A program made the translations under genes and the position numbers. The notes beneath the pieces are model-generated. The model saw nothing but the letters and a program-made list of their open reading frames with translations. It did no database searches and was not told the origin of the DNA. From Russula earlei (Eukaryota; Basidiomycota; Agaricomycetes; Russulales; Russulaceae), in contig JAGFNK010000298.1 of the NCBI GenBank assembly GCA_025769875.1, forward strand, positions 1-64,000: a stretch of 64,000 nucleotides of DNA. The letters run 5' to 3'. Of the stretch, positions 7,453 to 43,936 are shown in pieces. Position 1 is the stretch's first letter. Every line of letters starts with the position of its first letter.

Positions 7453-8280
7453 TGTCAAGACACATACTGCTGATCACTAAGGACTCAGGAGCAGGTGGGC
7501 AAGGGTCGGAACAGATGATACGTGGTGAAGGCGGCATTGAACAGGAGGATGAGCCAAATGACGAGGAGGTACCAGATGGGGACTGGTAGGTGTTGCAAGA
7601 GACAGAGGCAAAGGCTGGAGGCCAGTGTAGTGAGAGGGCTTTAAACAAGCGGTTGTTGAAGAGTACCTTGGAGGCGAGGGGAATCTTTAGACTGAGCAGT
7701 CACAGGGGAGTACCCAGGAAGATGAGAGTATCACAAATGGACAGTCTGATGACTGCCATGCTTCATTGGGGCTTATATACAGTGTACAGGGTCAATTACA
7801 AAGAACTGGAACTATTCTAGACCCTTTGGTACCATCCAATAGGACTACAGAGGCATAAACTCGCTTGTGTCAAGTTTCAGGCTTACTGAGCGCATTACTG
7901 ATCATTGTGGAGCGATGACATCATTATGATGTCACTGTGGAGCGCTTGGTGAGCCTATGAGGTCACTGTGGAGTCGCTCAGTCAGTCATGATGTCATTGG
8001 AGCCTTGATGACATCAGACAAGTTATGCAACAGTTTCTAAGAGTTGGTGCCACTGTTTTGGGTTCTTGGTGGCTGGGTGACCATGTGGCTGCCACGCGAT
8101 GATCACCCGATTAGGAAACAAGTGCCTGGTTGTGTTATAGTGCCTTTGCAATAGCAATATCTTGTACCACAGGAGGGGTAGCCCAGAAAATGGAAGGGAG
8201 TTGGCAATGCAAAGTGAGAGAGGTCTCTCTTGAGTGAAATGGGACAATCTACGGCCAGGGCCTGGCCTTGGTTCATAACA
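7453..8280 (-). repeat. LTR-B, 3' LTR of the minus-strand element B
   Basis: 828 bp, TGTCAAGACA to TTCATAACA on the plus strand. It lies downstream (on the minus strand) of the element B integrase-chromodomain frame, directly after a polypurine tract, so it is that element's 3' LTR. Its outer end cuts the element A RT gene. Confidence 0.85.
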
Positions 8281-13083: not shown

Positions 13084-13590
13084 TGTTACGAACCAAGGCC
13101 AGGTCCTGGCCATATATTGTCCTATTTCACTCAAGAGAGACCTCTCTCACTTTGCATTGCCAACTCCCTTCCATTTCTTGGGCTACCCCTCCTGTGGTGC
13201 AAGATATTGCTATTGCAACAGCACTATAACACAACCAGGCACCTGTTTCCTAATCGGGTAATCATTGCGTGGCAGCAACGTGGTCACCCAGCCACCAAGA
13301 ACCCAAAACAGTGGCTCCAATGACATCATGGCTGACTTAGCAACTCCACAGTGACCTCATAGGCTCACTAAGCACTCCACAGTGACATCATAATGATGTC
13401 ATCGCTCCACAATGATCAGTAATGCGCTCAGTAAGCCTGAAACTTGACACAAGCGAGTTTATGCCTCTGTAGTCCTATTGGATGGTACCAAAGGGTCTAG
13501 AATAGTTCCAGTTCTTTGTAATTGACCCTGTACACTGTATATAAGCCCCAATGAAGCATGGCAGTCATCAGACTGTCCATTTGTGATACT
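13084..13590 (+). repeat. LTR-B, 3'-truncated
   Basis: TGTTACGAACCAAGGCC to CCATTTGTGATACT matches the first ~507 bp of LTR-B in sense orientation. The match stops just after the TATA box and the AGACTGTCCA start motif, so the remaining ~320 bp are lost. Confidence 0.8.
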
Positions 13591-17383: not shown

Positions 17384-18237
17384 TGTCCACAATATTGCGC
17401 GAGCATTGTCGCGCAAGCAATTCTTGGCACAATCGACATACAGCAAGCCCCACTTAATGGCAACCCTTTTAGCAATAAAAGACAGTATTAGGACCTTCCG
17501 AAGGACCCTTAAGGACGACTCTAGATGCTCTACAATAGGCACTAACGCAGTATCAAAGACCCTACAACACATTATTAGACTAACTCTAATAACTATAGAA
17601 TGAACTATAAAGCAATACTAAGGACCTTAATAGAAGTATTAGGGTCGACTCTAAGGACCCTAATAGAACTATATAAGGGGCCTTATAAGATAACACTATT
17701 CCCTAAACCAAACTACAAGTCCTCAAATGACCGGCCCTAAACTAACTAACAGAAAATGAATCAGGTGCTTGCACATGTACTAAAGCAGTGAACACATGGA
17801 CAGGGAAGGCTCTTACTCATCAAGAGAAGCCTTCTTACTCAGCAGCTTACTGAGCATGACTGAGCATGCTCAGTAAGTGCACTCCAACTTCTTACTCATC
17901 ACTCTTTTGTGCTTGATAACAAGGTTATGACTTGTTCCCTATTTAGCAGTTCTCTTGTAGTATATAAGCACTCAATAAAGTAATGGACAGTCCTCAGACT
18001 GTCCATTTGTTTACAGCACTCTCCATCTCTGGGATACTCCTTTAAGGACCATCCCCTTGTGACTACCCTGGCTCCTTCCCTGCATACCTGCTCGACCTTA
18101 CCAGTGACCATACCTCTTTGGTATTTGTTACTGCTCTGGACTCTATTACTTGCCCATGCCATCTTGGACGTCTATCAACTTGTCTTTGAACTAACCCCTC
18201 ACTCTTGAACTGGATTGTTCAACAGTGAGTCTTGACA
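17384..18237 (+). repeat. Solo LTR-A with target duplication AGAGG
   Basis: TGTCCACAATATTGCG to GAGTCTTGACA, 854 bp, is flanked by AGAGG at 17,379-17,383 and 18,238-18,242. It defines the full length of LTR-A. The 5' part holds degenerate AAGGACC repeats. The 3' part has TATATAAG and the AGACTGTCCA start motif and matches 178-537. Confidence 0.9.
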
Positions 18238-18268: not shown

Positions 18269-19096
18269 TGTCAAGACACATACTGCTGATCACTAAGGAC
18301 TCAGGAGCAGGTGGGCAAGGGTCAGAACAGACGGTACGTGGTGTAAACGGCGTTGAACAGGAGGACGAGCCAAACGACTAGAAGATACCAGATGGGGACT
18401 GGTACGTGTTGCAAGAGGCAGAGGCGAAGAGTAGAGGCCAGTGCAGCGAGGGACTTTAAACAAGGCAGTCGTTGAAGAGTACCTTGAGGACGAGGGAGGA
18501 CTTTAGACTGAGCGGTCGCAGGGGAGTACCCAGGAAGATGAGAGTATCACAAATGGACAGTCTGACAACTGCCATGCTTCATTGGGGCTTATATACAGTG
18601 TACAGGGTCGATTACAAAGAACTGGGACTATTCTAGACTCTTTGGTACCATCCAATAGGACTACAGAGGCATAAACTTGCTTGTGTCAAGTTTCGGGCTT
18701 ACTGAGCGCATTACTGATCATTGTGGAGCGATGACATCATTATGATGTCACTGTGGAGCGCTTAGTGAGCCTATGAGGTCACTGTGGAGTCGCTCAATCA
18801 GCCATGATGTCATTGGAGCCTTGATGACATCAGATGATTTATGCAACAGTTTCTAAGAGTTTGTGCCGCTGTTTCAGGTCCTTGGTGGCTGGGTGGCCAT
18901 GTGGCTGCCACGCAATGATTACCTGATTAGGAAACAGGTGCCTGGTCATGTTATAGTGCCTTTGCAATAGCGATATCTTGTACCGCAGGAGGGATAGCCC
19001 AGAAAATGGAAGGGAGTCAGTAATGCAAAGTGAGAGAGGTCTCTCTTGAGTGAAATAGGACAATCTATGGCCAGGACCTGGCCTTGGTTCGTAACA
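18269..19096 (-). repeat. Solo LTR-B with target duplication GGGGA
   Basis: 828 bp, the same length as the 7,453 and 43,109 copies, flanked by GGGGA at 18,264-18,268 and 19,097-19,101. It lies only 31 bp from the end of the solo LTR-A. Confidence 0.95.
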
Positions 19097-20208: not shown

Positions 20209-20213
20209 ATGCA

Positions 20214-20708
20214 TGTCACTGACTGGGGGCGGTGTCGCTGACAAATCGGTTCACACGCGAGACGAGCGCAGCGAGTTGAGTGAGACGCTAAGTTCTCGTG
20301 AGTTTCGGGGATCTCGGAGACGATACTGTCAAAACAGATATGTTCCGCGGAGAGGGGAAATCACGAATAAGTCTTCGCGTTGGGAAGACTTATGAGTGAT
20401 AAAGATTTCAGATGATTTGCTTGAGGTCTTGCAAGCCTACAAGTTCCGAAGCGAGAAAACCAGTGATATTTCACAGGAGAACAAGCTTAGGGCTTGTCCT
20501 CATCAAACGACGGTCTTATATACATGCTAAATACTATATCAAATAGTATTCGTGAGGTAGAGGCGAGGCGATCGAACTGGAACATGCGAGAAACGTCTGG
20601 TATGCATGAGGCTAAGAAAAGAGTCATGAAACACGCGGGAAATTCGAGGTCTGTCCGGGTAGGCTTGTCCGGTTGCCGGTTCGGTCCGATGTACTGGTTC
20701 TTGTGACA
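20214..20708 (-). repeat. Element E 3' LTR
   Basis: 495 bp, TGTCAC...GTGACA on the plus strand, paired with 27,129-27,623. Confidence 0.95.
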
Positions 20709-20709
20709 T

Positions 20710-20728
20710 TACCCCCTTGTTAAGGTCT
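20710..20728 (-). other. Element E 3' polypurine tract
   Basis: The minus strand reads AGACCTTAACAAGGGGGTA just before the 3' LTR. The stop codon of ORF3 overlaps its start. An identical 19-nt copy lies at 23,382-23,400. Confidence 0.75.
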
Positions 20729-21816
20729 AACCTGTGTAGGGATGGACGTTAGAGACGCAACAGTGGGTATGATAGTGGAGTTGGTCCCGTGGAACTCGGC
20801 ATATTTTGTGTGCTTTGCAGCGTCGGTGTGGGGTCCTACAGAAGTCGGCTTTATGTCCATGACGGTTGCAGAGGACGCAGGTGGTAATCTTGGGACAGTC
20901 GACGGTATCGTGTCCCCCATCGAGACACCAGGAGCATTTGTCGGAGACACGGGGAGAGAACTGGTACCAGGGGTCCATGATCGCTTCTTTGGCATCCTTG
21001 TGTTCCTGTTTGGTTAGCTGTGGCATAGATTGGAACAGGATTCTGGGTTCGAGTCGAGTCTTGGCATTAGCTCTGGCTAATTTGACCTTGCTATCTCGAA
21101 TCTCCCACAGCATGTCATGGTAATGTCCTCTAGCCGTTACGAGTTGATTGGCCATTTGTCGCACTTTTTTAATAGCGAAACGATATCGAAGGACTTCAGC
21201 TTCGAGGGATAGATCTTCTTCAAAGGTGAGGGCTTCGTTGACGGCCTTGGTGTGTCTGAGTCCTTCTTGGAATAGGAAGGCGTCTTTTGTGGTAAGGAGG
21301 GGACGAGGATAGGGATCAGCTCGAGCTCGGATTGAGATTCGATGAGTAGGGTACCCGGGGCCATACGTCGCAGTGACTGATGGGAATCCATTGGTCAGAT
21401 TTGGTAGTACGAATCGTGGGGGAATTGTGTCGTCTTCGTTACCAGGGTCGGGGATCAGTATGTCAAGTCCCAGAGTTCCCTCCATCCAGTCATTTCCTAG
21501 TTCACGTAGCTCAGCTGTGGTGTCCGTTCCTGGAGCAATAGGTGTCGTATAAGCAGGTGGGGGAGTGACGTTGTCTTGTGGAGGTATTGGGACAAAGTTC
21601 TCATTAAGAAGTATTAAGTCGATTGGTTGTTGGGGAATGGGTGTGTCAAGTCGGGGGGGGAATAGGAACAGGGTCAGGAGAGGGGGAGTGGACGTGGTAG
21701 GATGGGCTGCGGGTAATTGGGGAGTTAGTTCCTCTAGTGGGGGAACGGTTGCCGAAAGCTTGCAGTATGGTGGGTAGGGTCTCTTCGTGCCAAAGTTCTT
21801 GAGCTTGCGCTATCAT
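20727..21816 (-). pseudogene. Element E ORF3: extra protein with two CCHC zinc knuckles
   Basis: The frame starts at ATG 21,816 (MIAQAQELWHEE). It changes frame once in a run of eight C (plus strand G, 21,653-21,660) and then continues open to the stop at 20,727. About 360 residues are implied. The N-terminal half is Pro/Thr-rich, the middle is a charged helical block (KKVRQMANQLVTARGHYHDM), and the C-terminus has two perfect CX2CX4HX4C knuckles (CSWCLDGGHDTVDC and CVLCNRHGHKADFC) followed by a Cys/His cluster. The knuckles resemble retroviral nucleocapsid, but Gag of this element has its own knuckle. It sits where env lies in retroviruses. I see no signal peptide or membrane segment. Function unknown; RNA binding is inferred from the knuckles. 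Confidence 0.65.
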
Positions 21817-22119
21817 GGCTGCATGTCACGCTGCACGGCGTATTAAGAGTTGAGTGTTAATAGTTGCGGCTGTGGATGGAGACGGTTCTCTGGAGATTGG
21901 TAGAGGAATGAAAGCTGGGGAGTGTGGAGGAGTAGGGACAAGAGTAATGGAAGAGGTAGTAGGTGAGTTGACGTTGGAGGACATGTTGGAATGGGGAGAA
22001 TAGGGTAGTGAAGAAATGTTGACTGGGGTTGGTGGTCTTTTATGTGTTGGGTCGTCCAGCCAGTAGCGGAGTAGAATTCTTTGAGGAGTCTGGGGGCGTT
22101 GAGGTTGTGATGGTCGACC
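21817..22119 (-). other. Element E pol 3' tail / spacer before ORF3
   Basis: This follows the chromodomain. Open minus frames encode Pro/Ser/Thr-rich sequence. It may be the pol C-terminus or an intergenic spacer. Confidence 0.4.
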
Positions 22120-23748
22120 CATGAATCATCTGATGATGGGTAACCTTTCTAGTGTACGAGGTATTGAAGTTTACAGTGTTCGTCCAAACCTTCTGGCATC
22201 TAGAATGGCCTCGATTTCGTATTCTTCTTCATTATCGATGATCGAGAGGTCGTGTAAACGGCGTGCCGTACTCTTCCGTTTCTATATATGGTAGAAGTAA
22301 ATTGACATGGAAGACGTCATGTATTTTCATTGATGACGGAAGTTGGAGTTGGTAGGCGACTTTAGAAATCTTTTTTGTGATGGGGAAGGGTCCATAACGT
22401 TTTGGGGTTAGCTTGCGGTTTCCTCGTGTTTTGAGGTTTTTGCCTTCTAGCCATACGAGGGTTCCTTCTTTCATTTCCGGATTGTCAGGTCTAGAGGGTT
22501 GTTGTTTACGTTCTAAGAGTTGTTGTGCATCGCGTCTAGATTGTTCCAGTTCCTTGAGTCAGGTCGGTCAAGGCGGGAACGTTGTTGTCCTCAAGGTTTA
22601 TGTCAATTTGGGGTCTGATCCCGATGAGGAGTTCGTGTGGTGATCGTCTTGATGTTTCATGTTTCCATGAGTTGTGTGCGTATTCTGCAATAGGAAGTAT
22701 TTTTGCCCAGGAGTGTGGGTGGGCTGCGGTTCAGGGTCTTAGGTATTGCTCTAGCCAGGCGTTCATTCTTTCGGTTTGTCCGTCGGTTTGAGGGGTGAAA
22801 TGCGGTGGACATGTTTTGTTTGATGCCTAGGCTTTTGCATAATGCTCTGGAGAAGTTTGATGCGAATCAGGGGTCTCTGTCAGATATGATTCTTTTTGGG
22901 ACACCGAACCAAGGCACGAGATGTTTCAGATATTCGTGTGCGACACCTGTTCCGTCGATCATTTTGTTACATGGGATGAATTTGGTCGCTTTAGAACATC
23001 CTTGATCGACAATGGTGAGGATGCTATCGAATCCTTCTGATCTTGGTAAATCAGTGATGAGGTCCATTGATACGTATTGAAAGGGGCCTTGTTCGACGTG
23101 TGTGTCGAGTGGGAAGGTTGTAGCTTTCTTTCTTGGTAGATTGGTTTTGGATTCTTGACATTTGGCGCAACCTTTTACGTATTGTTCTACAAATTGTCGT
23201 AGTTTGGGTCCTTCATAGTGTTGCTTTGACTAAGTCCCATGTGTTGGCAATTCCAGGATGTCCTGCGGGTGGGGCATCGTGAAATTGTCAGTAGGATTTC
23301 TCGTCGTTTGTCTAGTTTGTCGGGTAAGTAGATTTTTCGTGTGAATATTTCAGGTGGGAGGAGGGTGGTTTTTTGTTCTTCTACCCCCTTGTTAAGGTCT
23401 TTGCAGGCGAGAAAGTGTGTCGGCGATTGTGTTGGTGTGTCCCGGAATGTGTTCCATAATTAGGTTGAAGTCCTGCATATATTGCATCCATCTTGCTTGT
23501 TGTCCAGTTAATTTTTGTGGTTCTTTGAAATATGTGAGATTCTTGTGGTCTGTCCTTATTCGGACGGGTTTCTCTGCACCCAGGAAGAATGGTCGGCCAC
23601 TTTTGAGGCCAAATATGACAGCAGCTAGTTCTTTATCGTGTGCATCATAATTTCTTTCTGTGTCAAGTAGTGTTCTTGAATAGAACGCTATGGGATGGAG
23701 TCCATCTTCGTATTCTTGGGAAATAACCGCTCCTATGGCGAATCCCAA
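22120..23748 (-). pseudogene. Element E RNase H, integrase and chromodomain
   Basis: RNase H runs from 23,748 (FAIGAVISQE, DHKNLTYF, ADTLSR). A frame change follows, then a coding block that contains the internal polypurine tract (KDLNKGVEE). The integrase core is readable at 23,067-22,867 (MDLITDLP, VDQGCSKATKF, ISDRDP). The C-terminal block VWLEGKNLKTRG...RYGPFPI and VFHVNLLLPY lies at 22,474-22,232. The chromodomain follows (EEYEIEAILDAR, QYLVH-stop-KGYPSSDDSWV). Its conserved Trp codon is TAG, a TGG to TAG change. Integrase would insert the cDNA; the chromodomain normally guides it to marked chromatin. Confidence 0.8.
23382..23400 (-). other. Internal copy of the polypurine tract (candidate central PPT)
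   Basis: AGACCTTAACAAGGGGGTA on the minus strand is identical at all 19 positions to the 3' tract at 20,710-20,728. It lies between RNase H and integrase and is within coding sequence. A role in second plus-strand initiation is inference. Confidence 0.5.
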
Positions 23749-23972
23749 CGTGTCGGTGTCAAGAATGAATTGTTTGGTCCAGTCTGGAGTTTGAAGAACT
23801 GGGTAGGATGTGCATGTATCTTTCAGTGATTGGAACGCTTGTTGTTCTTTGGGTGTCCATTCCCATTGTTTATTTTTTTTTGTCAGGTCATTGAGTGGTC
23901 TGGCTTTGATTGAAAAATTTGGAATAAAGTTGCGGTAAAAGTTGCAGAATCCGAGGAAGCTTCGAACTTCTT

Positions 23973-25283
23973 TTAATGTTTTTGGCGTAGGCCAGTCCCC
24001 AATTCCTTAACCTTTATTGGGTCCATGGTGATTTTTCCTTTGCCAATGATCACTCCTAAGTATTCGACTTTTCTTTTGTGGAATTGGCATTTTTCTGGTT
24101 TAAGGTATAGGTCATGTTGTTTTAATTTTGACAGGATGTGGTTAACTTTAGATTTATGTTTCTCTTCATCATTTTCTGTGGCGATAATGATGTCGTCCAT
24201 ATAAATCTTCAGCCATCCTTGAGCAAGTTCTTCTTGAAAGATGTCATCCATCATTGTTTGGAAGGTTGCTGGGGAATTAGTTAATCCAAAGAACATTACC
24301 ATCGGTTCAAACAATCCATCGCTAGTTTTGAAGGCCGCTTTCCATCCGTCTCCTTCCTTAATCCTGATGTTGTTGTAGCCCCATCTGATATTGAATTTGG
24401 TGAAGAGTTCTTTGCCTGCTAGGGCATGTATCAACTCTGGGATTAAGGGAAGTGGATAGACATTAGGTATGGTCCATTTGTTCAGGTTTCTATAGTCTTG
24501 CACTGGTCAAAATTTGCCATCCTTTTTCTTAATCAGGAAGAAGCCACTTGCATATGGTGAGTTGGTTCGTTTTAATCGTAAATTTTGTTCAAGAAATTTT
24601 CCTTGTTCTTCTTTCTCCTTAGGTGAAAGGGGGTACACCCTGCAGTTGATTGTCGTGGGGGCGTCGGGTCTAAGATCGATGGCATGATCCCATTTTCTTG
24701 GTCCAGGGAATCTTTCTGATTTTTGTTCTTCGAAAACCTGGCCATAGACATGATACTGGGGAGGAACTATTTGTTGCCAGGTCAGTTGTTTGGATGGTGC
24801 TTGGGATTCTGCCAATTGTTGGGCGATTGTAGTTTTTTGTAGTTGTGTTCGTATCCAAAGTTCGTCGCCTTCTTCCCATTGTGCGATATTTTTTATCCAT
24901 TCTGGTGTTTCCTCGTCTCCGGACAAGGTTATTTTTCCCAATAATGTTCCATTGGTCCAATTGATCTTGGGATTCGTTGATTCAAGGAAGGGGTATCCTA
25001 GAATTAGATTGTCTTGTCCAATGTCTGCTATAAGGAATTGGTGTTTGCTTTTTTGTCCCAATAGTTTTAACTCCAAGTCTACTGCTTGAGTGATCTTTCC
25101 TAGGCGATTAGAAGTGTTATCAACATTTTTCACCACTCTGGGTGTTGACAGCCTTTGCGTTTTTAATTGAAGTTGTTTGGTTAGTTTAGGGGATATGAAG
25201 CATTCAGTTGCTCCGCTGTCGATTAACGCAGTTTTCTTTTTGGCTTTTGAGGTTCCAATGTATATCGTCAAATTGACCTGCAT
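23973..25283 (-). pseudogene. Element E protease and reverse transcriptase
   Basis: The first frame (25,283-24,507) starts with the aspartic protease core ALIDSGATECFIS, then LILGYPFL, and enters RT (CRVYPLSPKE, SPYASGFFLIKKKDGKF). A TGA at 24,507-24,509, where the family has Arg (R-PVQDYR), breaks it. The second frame (24,503-23,973) continues with VQDYRNLNKWTIPNVYPLPL, the FFGLTNSPATFQTMM block and the catalytic KIYMDDIII box. All RT catalytic Asp residues are present. The breakage is one nonsense transition, so the protein is otherwise well kept. Confidence 0.85.
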
Positions 25284-25345: not shown

Positions 25346-27047
25346 TCAGGCATCCGAAAAATCCTTTCCCTCGTCGTCGTCGGTCTCTCCATTCAACATC
25401 CTAATAAATTCCTCCCTTTCCTCTTTAGAAAGGGCTTTAGCAGCCTTTGCAACTTTGGCCGTTGCACTTTCTTCGATAATTTCGACGACGGAGGATTCGG
25501 ATGTGGTGGTGGTTACCTCTGCCGTGCGTGCGTGTGTTGGCTCGCATTTGGGTTTCGTGGGGCAGTCTCTGGCAAGGTGTCCTTGTTTTGAGCAATGGAA
25601 ACATCTGCCTTCGGCACGATGTTTTTCCTTGTCAGCTTTGGTGATCGCTTTGCGTGCTGCACCTGCACTTGTATCCATCGTGTTCGGGTCGCGTGGTGGA
25701 AGTCACACGCGTGGCGCACTAGCATTGTTGGTGGTGTTGCCGCGCGCTCCCCAATTTGAAAGGCGGGCCCAGGGGACGGTTGGTATTTGAATTGGCGTTT
25801 CTGTTATGAGTATTGGCAGTGGTCGGTGAGGACCGCGCGTTTGTGCATCCAAATGCGATGTTGCTTCTGGGCACCGGATATCCATTCTTGGAAGGTGGTC
25901 AGGTCTTCTTGACTGATGATTGCTTCTACCAATGGTTTGGGGAGACCGCACAGCGAAGAGACGCATAACCATCAGGGTCATCAGTATGTAGAGACCCTCG
26001 TCGAGCTAACAGTTCAAAGTTAGCTATATATTCATCTAGGTTGTTGTCCTTCATCTTGAGTTCCCGTAATTGGTCTTGCGCGCGTTCACGTTCGGCGTAA
26101 TTGGTAAACGCTCGTTTGAATTGCTGCTCCATGGCTTGCCAGGCAGTGAGGCCAAAGGGGATCTCATCTGGATCGAGCATGACTTTTTCAAGCCACTTGT
26201 CCATAGCTTCGACCCAACCGTCGATGCAGGGTCCTTCCATTAGCGATAAGAAGTAAGCACACTTCTTAATGGGATTCTGGGCAATTTTGCTGTCAAAATT
26301 CATCCTCATGAAACGTCGAAACGCGGTGAGGAATGCGTGAGTACGCGCGCGGTCGCCGTTAAAGGCCTTGGGCGGGACTCCTTCAAGTTTACCGTTGTCG
26401 GGGGGGCGCGCGTCGCGGTCGTACATGGCGTATGCGCCGTAGTCATCGGGGTCTGGGCTGGGAGGTCGTCTTTCGTGTCCTCTGAACCCTTGGAACAAGG
26501 ATGGGCATGGATATGCCTGCGCCGTTCCGGACGATGCCAGTTGTTGGGGTACTTGTGCAGGTGGTTCTTCTGGTTCGTCGGCTGCAACGAAAAGTTGTGT
26601 CGTGACTTGAGGTTCTTGTTCCATGGGTTCGGCGGGCGCGGGTCCGGGGGTTGGTGCACGAGATGGGTTTTTTGAGTTTGGAACGGGTTCTCCTGATTTG
26701 ATGAGCTGTTCCATGTCAAGACCCTTGAGGGGGTCAAAAGTCAGTCCAAGGGCCGGGCGTGCGACACAGTAGGCCTCGAAGTAGTCTTCGCGGCGTCGGA
26801 TTTCGAACCATACGCCATAGAGGGTTCCAAGGCCTACTTTGGCCTTTCTGTAGTAAGCATAGTACCCGGTCCAGGGTACACTGTCTATTCCTACTCTGAG
26901 GAAGTGGGCATTTTCTCTGAAGGCATCAGGGACGAATGCGTCGTCAAGGTCTGGGTTTAGTTTGAAGGGACACTTGAGTTTCTTTAATCCTTCTTCTGTG
27001 GGTTTTCCTTGTCCTTTGAACCTCCAGTCTCTAGCCATGGAAGTCAT
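25346..27047 (-). pseudogene. Element E Gag with CCHC knuckle
   Basis: The frame from 27,047 encodes about 370 residues: an N-terminal domain of unknown fold, a Pro-rich linker, and a retrotransposon Gag core (KKCAYFLSLMEGPCIDGW, FKRAFTNYAERERAQDQLREL, NNLDEYIANFELLARRG). A frameshift near 25,950 breaks it, and the continuation in another frame reads PLVEAIISQEDLTTFQEW. The C-terminal frame 25,678-25,346 holds CFHCSKQGHLARDC and an acidic tail. Gag would form the virus-like particle. Confidence 0.8.
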
Positions 27048-27115: not shown

Positions 27116-27126
27116 AAGCTTGTTCT
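27116..27126 (-). other. Element E primer-binding site, self-priming type
   Basis: The minus strand reads AGAACAAGCTT starting 2 nt inside the 5' LTR. It is the exact reverse complement of AAGCTTGTTCT, the predicted first 11 nt of the transcript (27,403-27,393). This equals the 11-nt complementarity known for Tf1. Confidence 0.65.
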
Positions 27127-27128
27127 AA

Positions 27129-27623
27129 TGTCACCGACTGGGGGCGGTGTCGCTGACAAATCGGTTCACGCGCGAGACGAGCGCAGCGAGTTGAGTGAGA
27201 CGCTAAGTTCTCGCGAGTTTCGGGGATCTCGGAGACGATACTGTCAAAACAGATATGTTCCGCGGAGAGGGGAAATCACGAATAAGTCTTCGCGTTGGGA
27301 AGACTTATGAGTGATAAAGATTTCAGATGATTTGCTTGAGGTCTTGCAAGCCTACAAGTTCCGAAGCGAGAAAACCAGTGATATTTCACAGGAGAACAAG
27401 CTTAGGGCTTGTCCTCATCAAACGACGGTCTTATATACATGCTAAATACTATATCAAATAGTATTCGTGAGGTAGAGGCGAGGCGATCGAACTGGAACAT
27501 GCGAGAAACGTCTGGTATGCATGAGGCTAAGAAAAGAGTCATGAAACACATGGGAAATTCGAGGTCTGTCCAGGTAGGCTTGTCCGGTTGCCGGTTCGGT
27601 CCGATGTACCGGTTCTTGTGACA
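27129..27623 (-). repeat. Element E 5' LTR
   Basis: 495 bp. Compared with the 3' LTR it has seven differences, every one a CpG versus TpG/CpA difference. Outer flank ATGCA at 27,624-27,628. Confidence 0.95.
27393..27437 (-). promoter_or_regulatory. Element E LTR core promoter
   Basis: On the minus strand TATATAAG starts at 27,437. The self-primer sequence AAGCTTGTTCT starts 34 nt later at 27,403, in the expected window for polymerase II initiation. The same sequence is present in the 3' LTR (self-primer motif at 20,478-20,488). Confidence 0.55.
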
Positions 27624-27628
27624 ATGCA

Positions 27629-43108: not shown

Positions 43109-43936
43109 TGTTACAAATTAAGGCCAGATCCTGGCTGTATATTGTCCTATTTCACTCAAGAGAGACCTCTCTCACTTTGCATTGCCAACACACTTCTGTT
43201 TCTTGGGCTACCCCTCCTGCAGTGCAAGATATTGCTATTGCAAAGGCATTATAACATGACCAGGCACCCATTTCCTAATCAGGTAATCATTGCATGGCAG
43301 CCACATGGCCACTCAGCCATCAGGAACCCAAAACAGCAGCATAAACTCCTATAAACTGTTGCATAACTCATATGACATCATCTAGGCTCCAATGACATCA
43401 TGGCTGACTGAGTGACTCCACAATGACCTCACTGGCTTACTAAGTGATCCACAGTGACATCATAATGATGTCATCTCTCCACAATGATCAGTAATACACT
43501 CAGTAAGCCTGAAACCTGACACAAGCAAGTTTATGCCTCTGTAGTCATATTAGATGGTACCAAGGGGTCTAGAATAGTTCCTGCTCTTTGTAATTGACCC
43601 TGTACACAGTATATAAGCCCCAATGTAGCATGGCAGTTGTCAGACTGTCCAATTGTGATACTCTCATCTTCCTGGGTACTCCCCTGTGACCGCTCAGTTT
43701 AAAGTCTTCCCTCTTCCTCAAGGTACTCTTCAACAACTGCCTTGTCTAAAGCCCTTCACCACACTGGCCTCTGCCCTTCGCCTCTGTCTCCTGCAGCATG
43801 TACCAGTCCCCATCTGGTACCTTCTAGTTGTTTGACTCGTCCTTCTGCTCAATGCTGTCTTTGCCACGTACTGTCTGTTCCAACCCTTGCCCACCTGCTC
43901 CTAAGTCCTTAGTGATCAGCAGTAAGTGTCTTGACA
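43109..43936 (+). repeat. Solo LTR-B with target duplication AAACG
   Basis: 828 bp, TGTTACAAATT to GTCTTGACA, flanked by AAACG at 43,104-43,108 and 43,937-43,941. It has TATATAAG and a start motif with one substitution (AGACTGTCCAATT). It is 24 kb away from the other LTR-B copies. Confidence 0.95.

Follow-up and report, generated by a model that had tools for sequence, protein, structure and literature searches.

A Russula earlei Ty3/gypsy retrotransposon that probably primes reverse transcription with the 5' end of its own RNA

The window analysed here spans positions 1–64,000 of contig JAGFNK010000298.1 of the basidiomycete Russula earlei (assembly GCA_025769875.1), and genome-wide counts come from this one 66.6-Mb genome. 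On its minus strand, the window carries Element E, a decayed Ty3/gypsy retrotransposon, probably of the chromovirus type, which we consider very likely to prime its own reverse transcription. The presumed 5' end of its RNA exactly complements the primer-binding site (PBS), and other families show a matching pair in different letters; thus, priming very probably proceeds without a tRNA. From the sequences, positions, conservation and family-level co-variation, all directly observed, we infer the start site, cleavage and priming in Element E. A sequence-only reading of this DNA had proposed self-priming in the style of Tf1 of Schizosaccharomyces pombe, and the conservation of the E pair, its co-variation between families and the poor fit of tRNAs all speak for that proposal.

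An exact complement between the presumed RNA start and the PBS

The pair lies in and just beyond the 5' long terminal repeat (LTR), with the following parts read from the sequence:

27430..27437, minus strand: presumed TATA box, TATATAAG
27393..27403, minus strand: R1–R11, AAGCTTGTTCT, presumed self-primer at the presumed RNA 5' end, exactly complementary to the PBS
27127..27128, minus strand: 2-nucleotide (nt) spacer TT, from the LTR end to the PBS
27116..27126, minus strand: PBS, AGAACAAGCTT, exact reverse complement of AAGCTTGTTCT

AAGCTTGTTCT begins 34 nt past the start of TATATAAG, and the R-to-PBS distance is 277. The sequence-only reading had located all three sequences correctly, and their 11-nt complementarity is exact. 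It had also put the PBS 2 nt inside the 5' LTR; the distance of 2 nt stands, but the PBS sits downstream of (internal to) the LTR end at 27129 and hence outside the LTR.

How often would such a pair arise by chance? An 11-nt inverted pair alone is common in 64 kb: the window holds 21 exact pairs 60–600 nt apart per strand (42 on both strands, overlapping frames of longer arms being counted separately), and dinucleotide shuffles hold a mean of 21.7 on both strands. Once the geometry of a TATA box and an LTR end was imposed (a TATA lying 30–40 nt upstream of the first arm and a CA two bases upstream of the second), the pair became rare, with one pair in total in 30 shuffles (both strands). The same filter returned five rows from the real window, three on the plus and two on the minus strand. 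Two of these are the E pair, seen once per strand; the other three belong to V and W (below), two LTRs in opposite orientation with a common primer sequence.

A tRNA-primed PBS begins with TGG. No TGG occurs in the 60 nt after the E LTR, and the best tRNA 3' fit to the E PBS was 6/12 among 13 distinct tRNA genes (30 loci), a partial set with many isotypes missing, the comparison having begun one base into the spacer. These results agree with the earlier suggestion that no tRNA-like PBS is needed. The tRNA search also gave 16 tRNA-Ile(TAT)-like genes of identical sequence, dispersed over different contigs, and, apart from these, 17 more matches that have a single score of 56.3 bits in common; copy numbers of this size are unusual, and these sequences may be SINE-like (short interspersed nuclear elements).

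Conservation among copies of Element E

The E 11-mer occurs 594+562 times genome-wide, against 41+51 for a reversed control. To follow both halves of the pair, we examined 50 E loci, 30 found by similarity and 20 picked for diversity from 62 pattern matches. Of these, 46 fit the pattern TATATAAG...TGACATT (the misfits are L010, L017, L029 and L033, the last of which nevertheless carries an exact R/PBS pair). Three loci, L035, L070 and L080, were dropped: they have TT after the LTR but no PBS-like sequence, and resemble solo or 3' LTRs. In the final set of 43, which includes the window copy, R1–R11 is exact in 42 copies and the PBS in 41, and 40 keep all 11 pairs. Pairwise identity over the region averages 81.5%, with a minimum of 68.8%, and both 11-mers belong, like the LTR end and TGTAGGCTTGCA, to its best-conserved windows. 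The latter (27356-27345, minus strand, in R-U5) is a feature in its own right, conserved about as strongly as primer and PBS in the 43 copies.

R1–R11 is also exact in 61 of 62 other E copies. In these, R starts 34 nt after the TATA box in 60 cases and 35 nt in two, and a pyrimidine precedes the A at R1 in all 62. A search for copies truncated exactly at R1 (purine at −1) gave four candidate places. Ascertainment accounts for part of this conservation, since similarity searching supplied 30 of the loci and only loci with TATATAAG and TGACATT were kept; the copies are kin rather than independent, and the constancy of the spacer is uninformative since TGACATT served as a search pattern. Within family E, the primer helix has no paired changes.

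Primer and PBS change together between families

Paired changes did emerge between families. Families X, Y and Z were reached by a search with a distant reverse transcriptase (RT) and family W by an RVT_1 search, and all were compared with LTR ends and TATA boxes at matching places. No relatives of E were confirmed in IMG/VR (RT piece; gag and protease–RT alignments), so that every DNA comparison comes from one genome. Each family carries its own pair:

Family X: primer AAGCTTGGTCT, PBS AGACCAAGCTT, 11/11 pairs, distance 492
Family Y: primer AAGTCGAATCT, PBS AGATTCGACTT, 11/11 pairs, distance 162
Family Z: primer AAGTCAAATCT, PBS AGATTTGACTT, 11/11 pairs, distance 143
Family W: primer AGACTGTCCA, PBS TGGACAGTCT, 10/10 pairs, distance 298

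Pairs 4–8 vary across E, X, Y and Z yet are Watson-Crick in all four. Pairs 4–7 distinguish E/X from Y/Z, and when a primer of one group is set on a PBS of the other, only 6 of 11 positions fit. Judged by eye, E and X are similar over U3-R, so the shift from T-A in E to G-C in X at pair 8 probably represents compensation between related families. Towards U5, complementarity extends no further than nt 11 in E, X and Y, and nt 10 in W. An exact 11-nt pair with the required geometry was present in four of eight family pieces, against none of 160 plain shuffles (20 per piece). Independent drift of start and PBS, the pattern that would have spoken against the sequence-only reading, is largely not seen: 40 of the 43 E copies pair fully and families change both together, with mismatches in some Y/Z-type copies. 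The paired changes that this reading had proposed looking for in other copies are found between families E, X, Y, Z and W, and not within E.

The LTR end of Y44 is confirmed by a second, identical LTR of 323 bp, and that of W by two LTRs of ~830 bp, 95% identical. We had taken W for a class without self-priming, a view dropped once its LTR end was located and the 10-nt pair seen. This pair emerged from a scan of an 830-nt LTR with 9- and 11-nt stretches taken at several offsets, and its length alone is weak evidence (an estimated 1 in 100 by chance); its weight comes from its position, 32 nt after the TATA box, and from 305 copies. These are the genomic places of the W pattern, TATATAAG...TTGACATN+TGGACAGTCT (control, 0), and the exact primer AGACTGTCCA is present in 73 of the 77 places whose letters were displayed. 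One W place lies upstream of the C74 piece, itself pairless in the earlier family test. A broader pattern that excludes E, TGACANNAGABNNNNCTT, matched 191 places against 7 in the control, a count that includes some R sites read on the opposite strand.

Other W-related sequences occur in the window. Four W LTRs without a W PBS after them (987-1803, 7453-8280 and 18269-19096 on the minus strand; 43109-43936 on the plus strand) are solo or 3' LTRs, with another, partial match at 13084-13590. A further LTR-like repeat, V, presumably an LTR, has two copies on the plus strand (177-527 and 17887-18237, 88% identical) with TATATAAG and the W primer letters.

Predicted structure of the leader RNA

The sequence-only reading had asked for the leader to be folded. 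RNA started at R1 is predicted to pair with the PBS: mean R:PBS probability (P) was 0.93 over the 43 E copies and at least 0.5 in 42 of them, against 0.005 when the PBS was shuffled (two shuffles per copy). Folding gave similar values in X (0.97), Y (0.95) and W (0.97). A consensus fold (RNAalifold) of 23 non-redundant E copies, each <92% identical to the others, also predicts a central hairpin, seven pairs of which have changed on both sides, and two further hairpins:

27375..27392, minus strand: R12–R29 hairpin, CCUGUGAAAUAUCACUGG, RNAalifold, 96.5% of cells paired
27129..27158, minus strand: U5-terminal hairpin, UGUCAGCGAC...GUCGGUGACA, adjoining the PBS, U5-IR-like, 96.1% of cells paired

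The second is comparable to the U5-IR-like structure that Lin and Levin (1998) reportedly described for Tf1, the name being taken from their title. Across the four helices that were tested, the share of paired cells is 97.2%, against 92.4% after shuffling (0/500 as high), and the covariation score is 0.172 against 0.083 (0/500). Pairs changed on both sides number 9 against 6.0 (9/500), and further pair types 19 against 18.0 (149/500), which is no excess; helix 1 has no two-sided change. Slid versions of the helices reach 28 to 52% pairing, a control in which the structure is favoured since it was derived from the same sequences. No helix using sequence downstream of the PBS appears in the consensus fold of the 23 copies.

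A U3 arm that may mask the primer

Just upstream of the presumed start lies an inverted near-copy of the primer:

27407..27416, minus strand: U3 arm, GAGGACAAGC, able to pair with R3–R12

In the window copy, U3 arm and R can form a 10-bp hairpin, and 57 of the 62 other E copies keep the full set of 10 pairs, counting both Watson-Crick and G.U. Nine of the ten arm positions hold one letter in at least 58 of these 62 copies; the sole freely varying site, opposite U, is A in 30 and G in 32. V and W have a comparable U3 hairpin whose letters are unrelated to those of E; the putative mask is thus shared by two family groups, E/X and V/W, without common letters. In the second V copy (17887-18237), the inverted repeat of arm and R is perfect over 10 bp and encloses a 4-base loop. 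When 34 nt of U3 were kept on the E RNA, the R:PBS probability in folding fell to 0.26, against 0.93 from R1, and shuffling the arm with U3 kept restored it to 0.91. W shows the same effect of the arm; X does not.

The U3 hairpin may mask wrong copies of the primer. More tentatively, and with rather less than even confidence, we propose a self-masking switch: the arm would fold on R3–R12 wherever RNA contains U3 (3' LTR, read-through), and only R1-started RNA would have a free primer and could prime. The element would thereby proof-read its own transcript start and avoid cleavage or priming at the wrong R copy.

A model for self-priming and its alternatives

What would be the mechanism? RNA polymerase II would start at the first A of AAGCTTGTTCT, and nt 1–11 of the transcript would loop back to anneal with the PBS, two bases beyond the LTR. 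Once RNase H had cut after nt 11, the freed 11-mer would be extended through U5 and R, so that the 11-nt AAGCUUGUUCU is the RNA expected attached to the minus-strand strong-stop cDNA. This short cDNA would transfer to the 3' R, where copying would continue, and plus-strand synthesis would copy the primer into a new PBS. As in the general retroviral cycle, both R1–R11 and the PBS would then be renewed from a single source in every round, which would keep them complementary and would explain why 10–11 nt of complementarity change in concert between families.

Alternatively, the inverted repeat could be a DNA-level promoter palindrome over the start, read by a dimeric factor, with the likeness to the PBS secondary. 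U3 arm and R do form a near-palindrome straddling the presumed start, and the constancy of nine of the ten arm positions would fit such a site; we nevertheless rate this explanation as improbable. Against self-priming itself, some Y/Z-type copies mismatch between primer and PBS, at sites that look like CpG decay.

Priming by an unusual tRNA or another host RNA, with the R match a by-product, would accord with the W PBS, which begins with TGG like tRNA-primed sites, and with the partial nature of the tRNA set. However, TGG is absent from the PBS of E, X, Y and Z, the best tRNA fit to W is only 8/18, to be set beside the low E value, and each family's PBS fits its own R at a similar distance from the TATA box, which leaves this explanation very improbable. 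We give equally little credence to a real R:PBS pairing that serves genome folding, packaging or dimerisation while priming occurs elsewhere. Folding yields a long-range duplex and cannot reveal its use, but the position (2 nt past the LTR) and the length (10–11 nt) fit a primer-binding site, and no other candidate was seen in the 60 nt after the E LTR. Self-priming thus remains by far our preferred explanation.

Organization of Element E

Element E has two 495-bp LTRs with 7 differences between them and ends TG...CA, flanked on both sides by the target duplication TGCAT. The order gag, protease, RT, RNase H, integrase, typical of Ty3/gypsy, is present between the LTRs, in frames interrupted by stops and frameshifts:

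27129..27623, minus strand: 5' LTR, 495 bp, TGTCAC...GTGACA; TGCAT flank at 27624-27628
25926..27047, minus strand: gag frame, 373 aa, PF03732, E=2.5e-6
24507..25283, minus strand: protease frame, continuing into RT, PF13650, PF13975, PF08284
23973..24506, minus strand: RT piece, PF00078, E=3.6e-29
23392..24006, minus strand: RNase H piece, PF17917, E=6.8e-31
22867..23229, minus strand: integrase zinc-binding piece, PF17921, E=3e-5, 24.5 bits, just under the 25.5 cut-off
22232..22558, minus strand: integrase C-terminal piece with a Tf2-1-like SH3 domain (SH3_Tf2-1), PF24626, E=1.5e-19
21843..22148, minus strand: piece with the C-terminal half of a chromodomain, in another frame, PF00385, E=0.0099, 16.2 bits, below the 25.1 cut-off
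20710..20728, minus strand: presumed 3' polypurine tract context, AGACCTTAACAAGGGGGTA, before the 3' LTR
20214..20708, minus strand: 3' LTR; TGCAT flank at 20209-20213

The closest protein to the E Gag is from Russula earlei itself (65% identity, 85% coverage). The domains favour placing E in the Tf1-type group, namely SH3_Tf2-1 and the chromodomain piece, although the latter is a half domain only, below cut-off and in a broken frame.

Between integrase and 3' LTR lies a third open frame of 360 aa (20727-21809, minus strand), which has no Pfam match and whose C-terminal part contains Cys/His clusters resembling zinc knuckles by eye. A second exact 19-nt copy of AGACCTTAACAAGGGGGTA occurs inside pol (23400-23382, minus strand), where it ends the RNase H frame, containing its TAA stop, and precedes integrase; the internal polypurine context TTAACAAGGGGGTAGAA is found at 194 genomic places, against 0 in a control. 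The pol copy looks like a conserved central polypurine tract, a feature of which the literature search returned nothing by title.

Discussion

Self-priming is established for Tf1, in which the first 11 RNA bases are complementary to the PBS and RNase H cuts between bases 11 and 12 (PMC7175516), and it has been proposed for Tcn1 of Cryptococcus neoformans, a basidiomycete Ty3/gypsy element (PMC7175516). It is described as common among Tf1/sushi elements (PMC10085805). For Tj1, Tosmo1-3 and Tcry1 of other fission yeasts, a PBS complementary to the RNA 5' end was proposed from sequence (PMC4600332, PMC10085805), and the subject is further treated in PMC6317226, PMC4600332 and PMC2864245. Element E would thus newly join a known mechanism.

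Compared by description, E shares with Tf1/Tf2 the 11-nt complement of start and PBS and a Ty3-type pol with a Tf2-1-like SH3 domain, and differs from Tf1 in its LTR letters, its third open frame and perhaps its U3:R hairpin. The Tf1 leader requires three duplexes, in the pretzel model (PMC10085805); E shows the central R:PBS duplex and the R12–R29 and U5 hairpins but not a helix downstream of the PBS. Also by description, E resembles Tcn1 in being a basidiomycete Ty3/gypsy element with proposed self-priming, and Tj1, Tosmo1-3 and Tcry1, whose hosts are ascomycetes, in its PBS/RNA 5'-end complement. The putative masking hairpin is possibly new: in the open-licence literature covered, which was searched for self-priming in mushrooms or Russulaceae with no search aimed at hairpins, we found no mention of a U3:R hairpin or of this host.

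Experimental proof of self-priming exists for Tf1, and the proposals for other elements are sequence-based. In this one genome, several Ty3-type families carry different primers at the same place, which amounts to a natural compensatory-change test in basidiomycetes. If the U3 hairpin does mask the second copy of the primer, it would explain how an RNA that carries this sequence at each end can restrict its use to the 5' copy.
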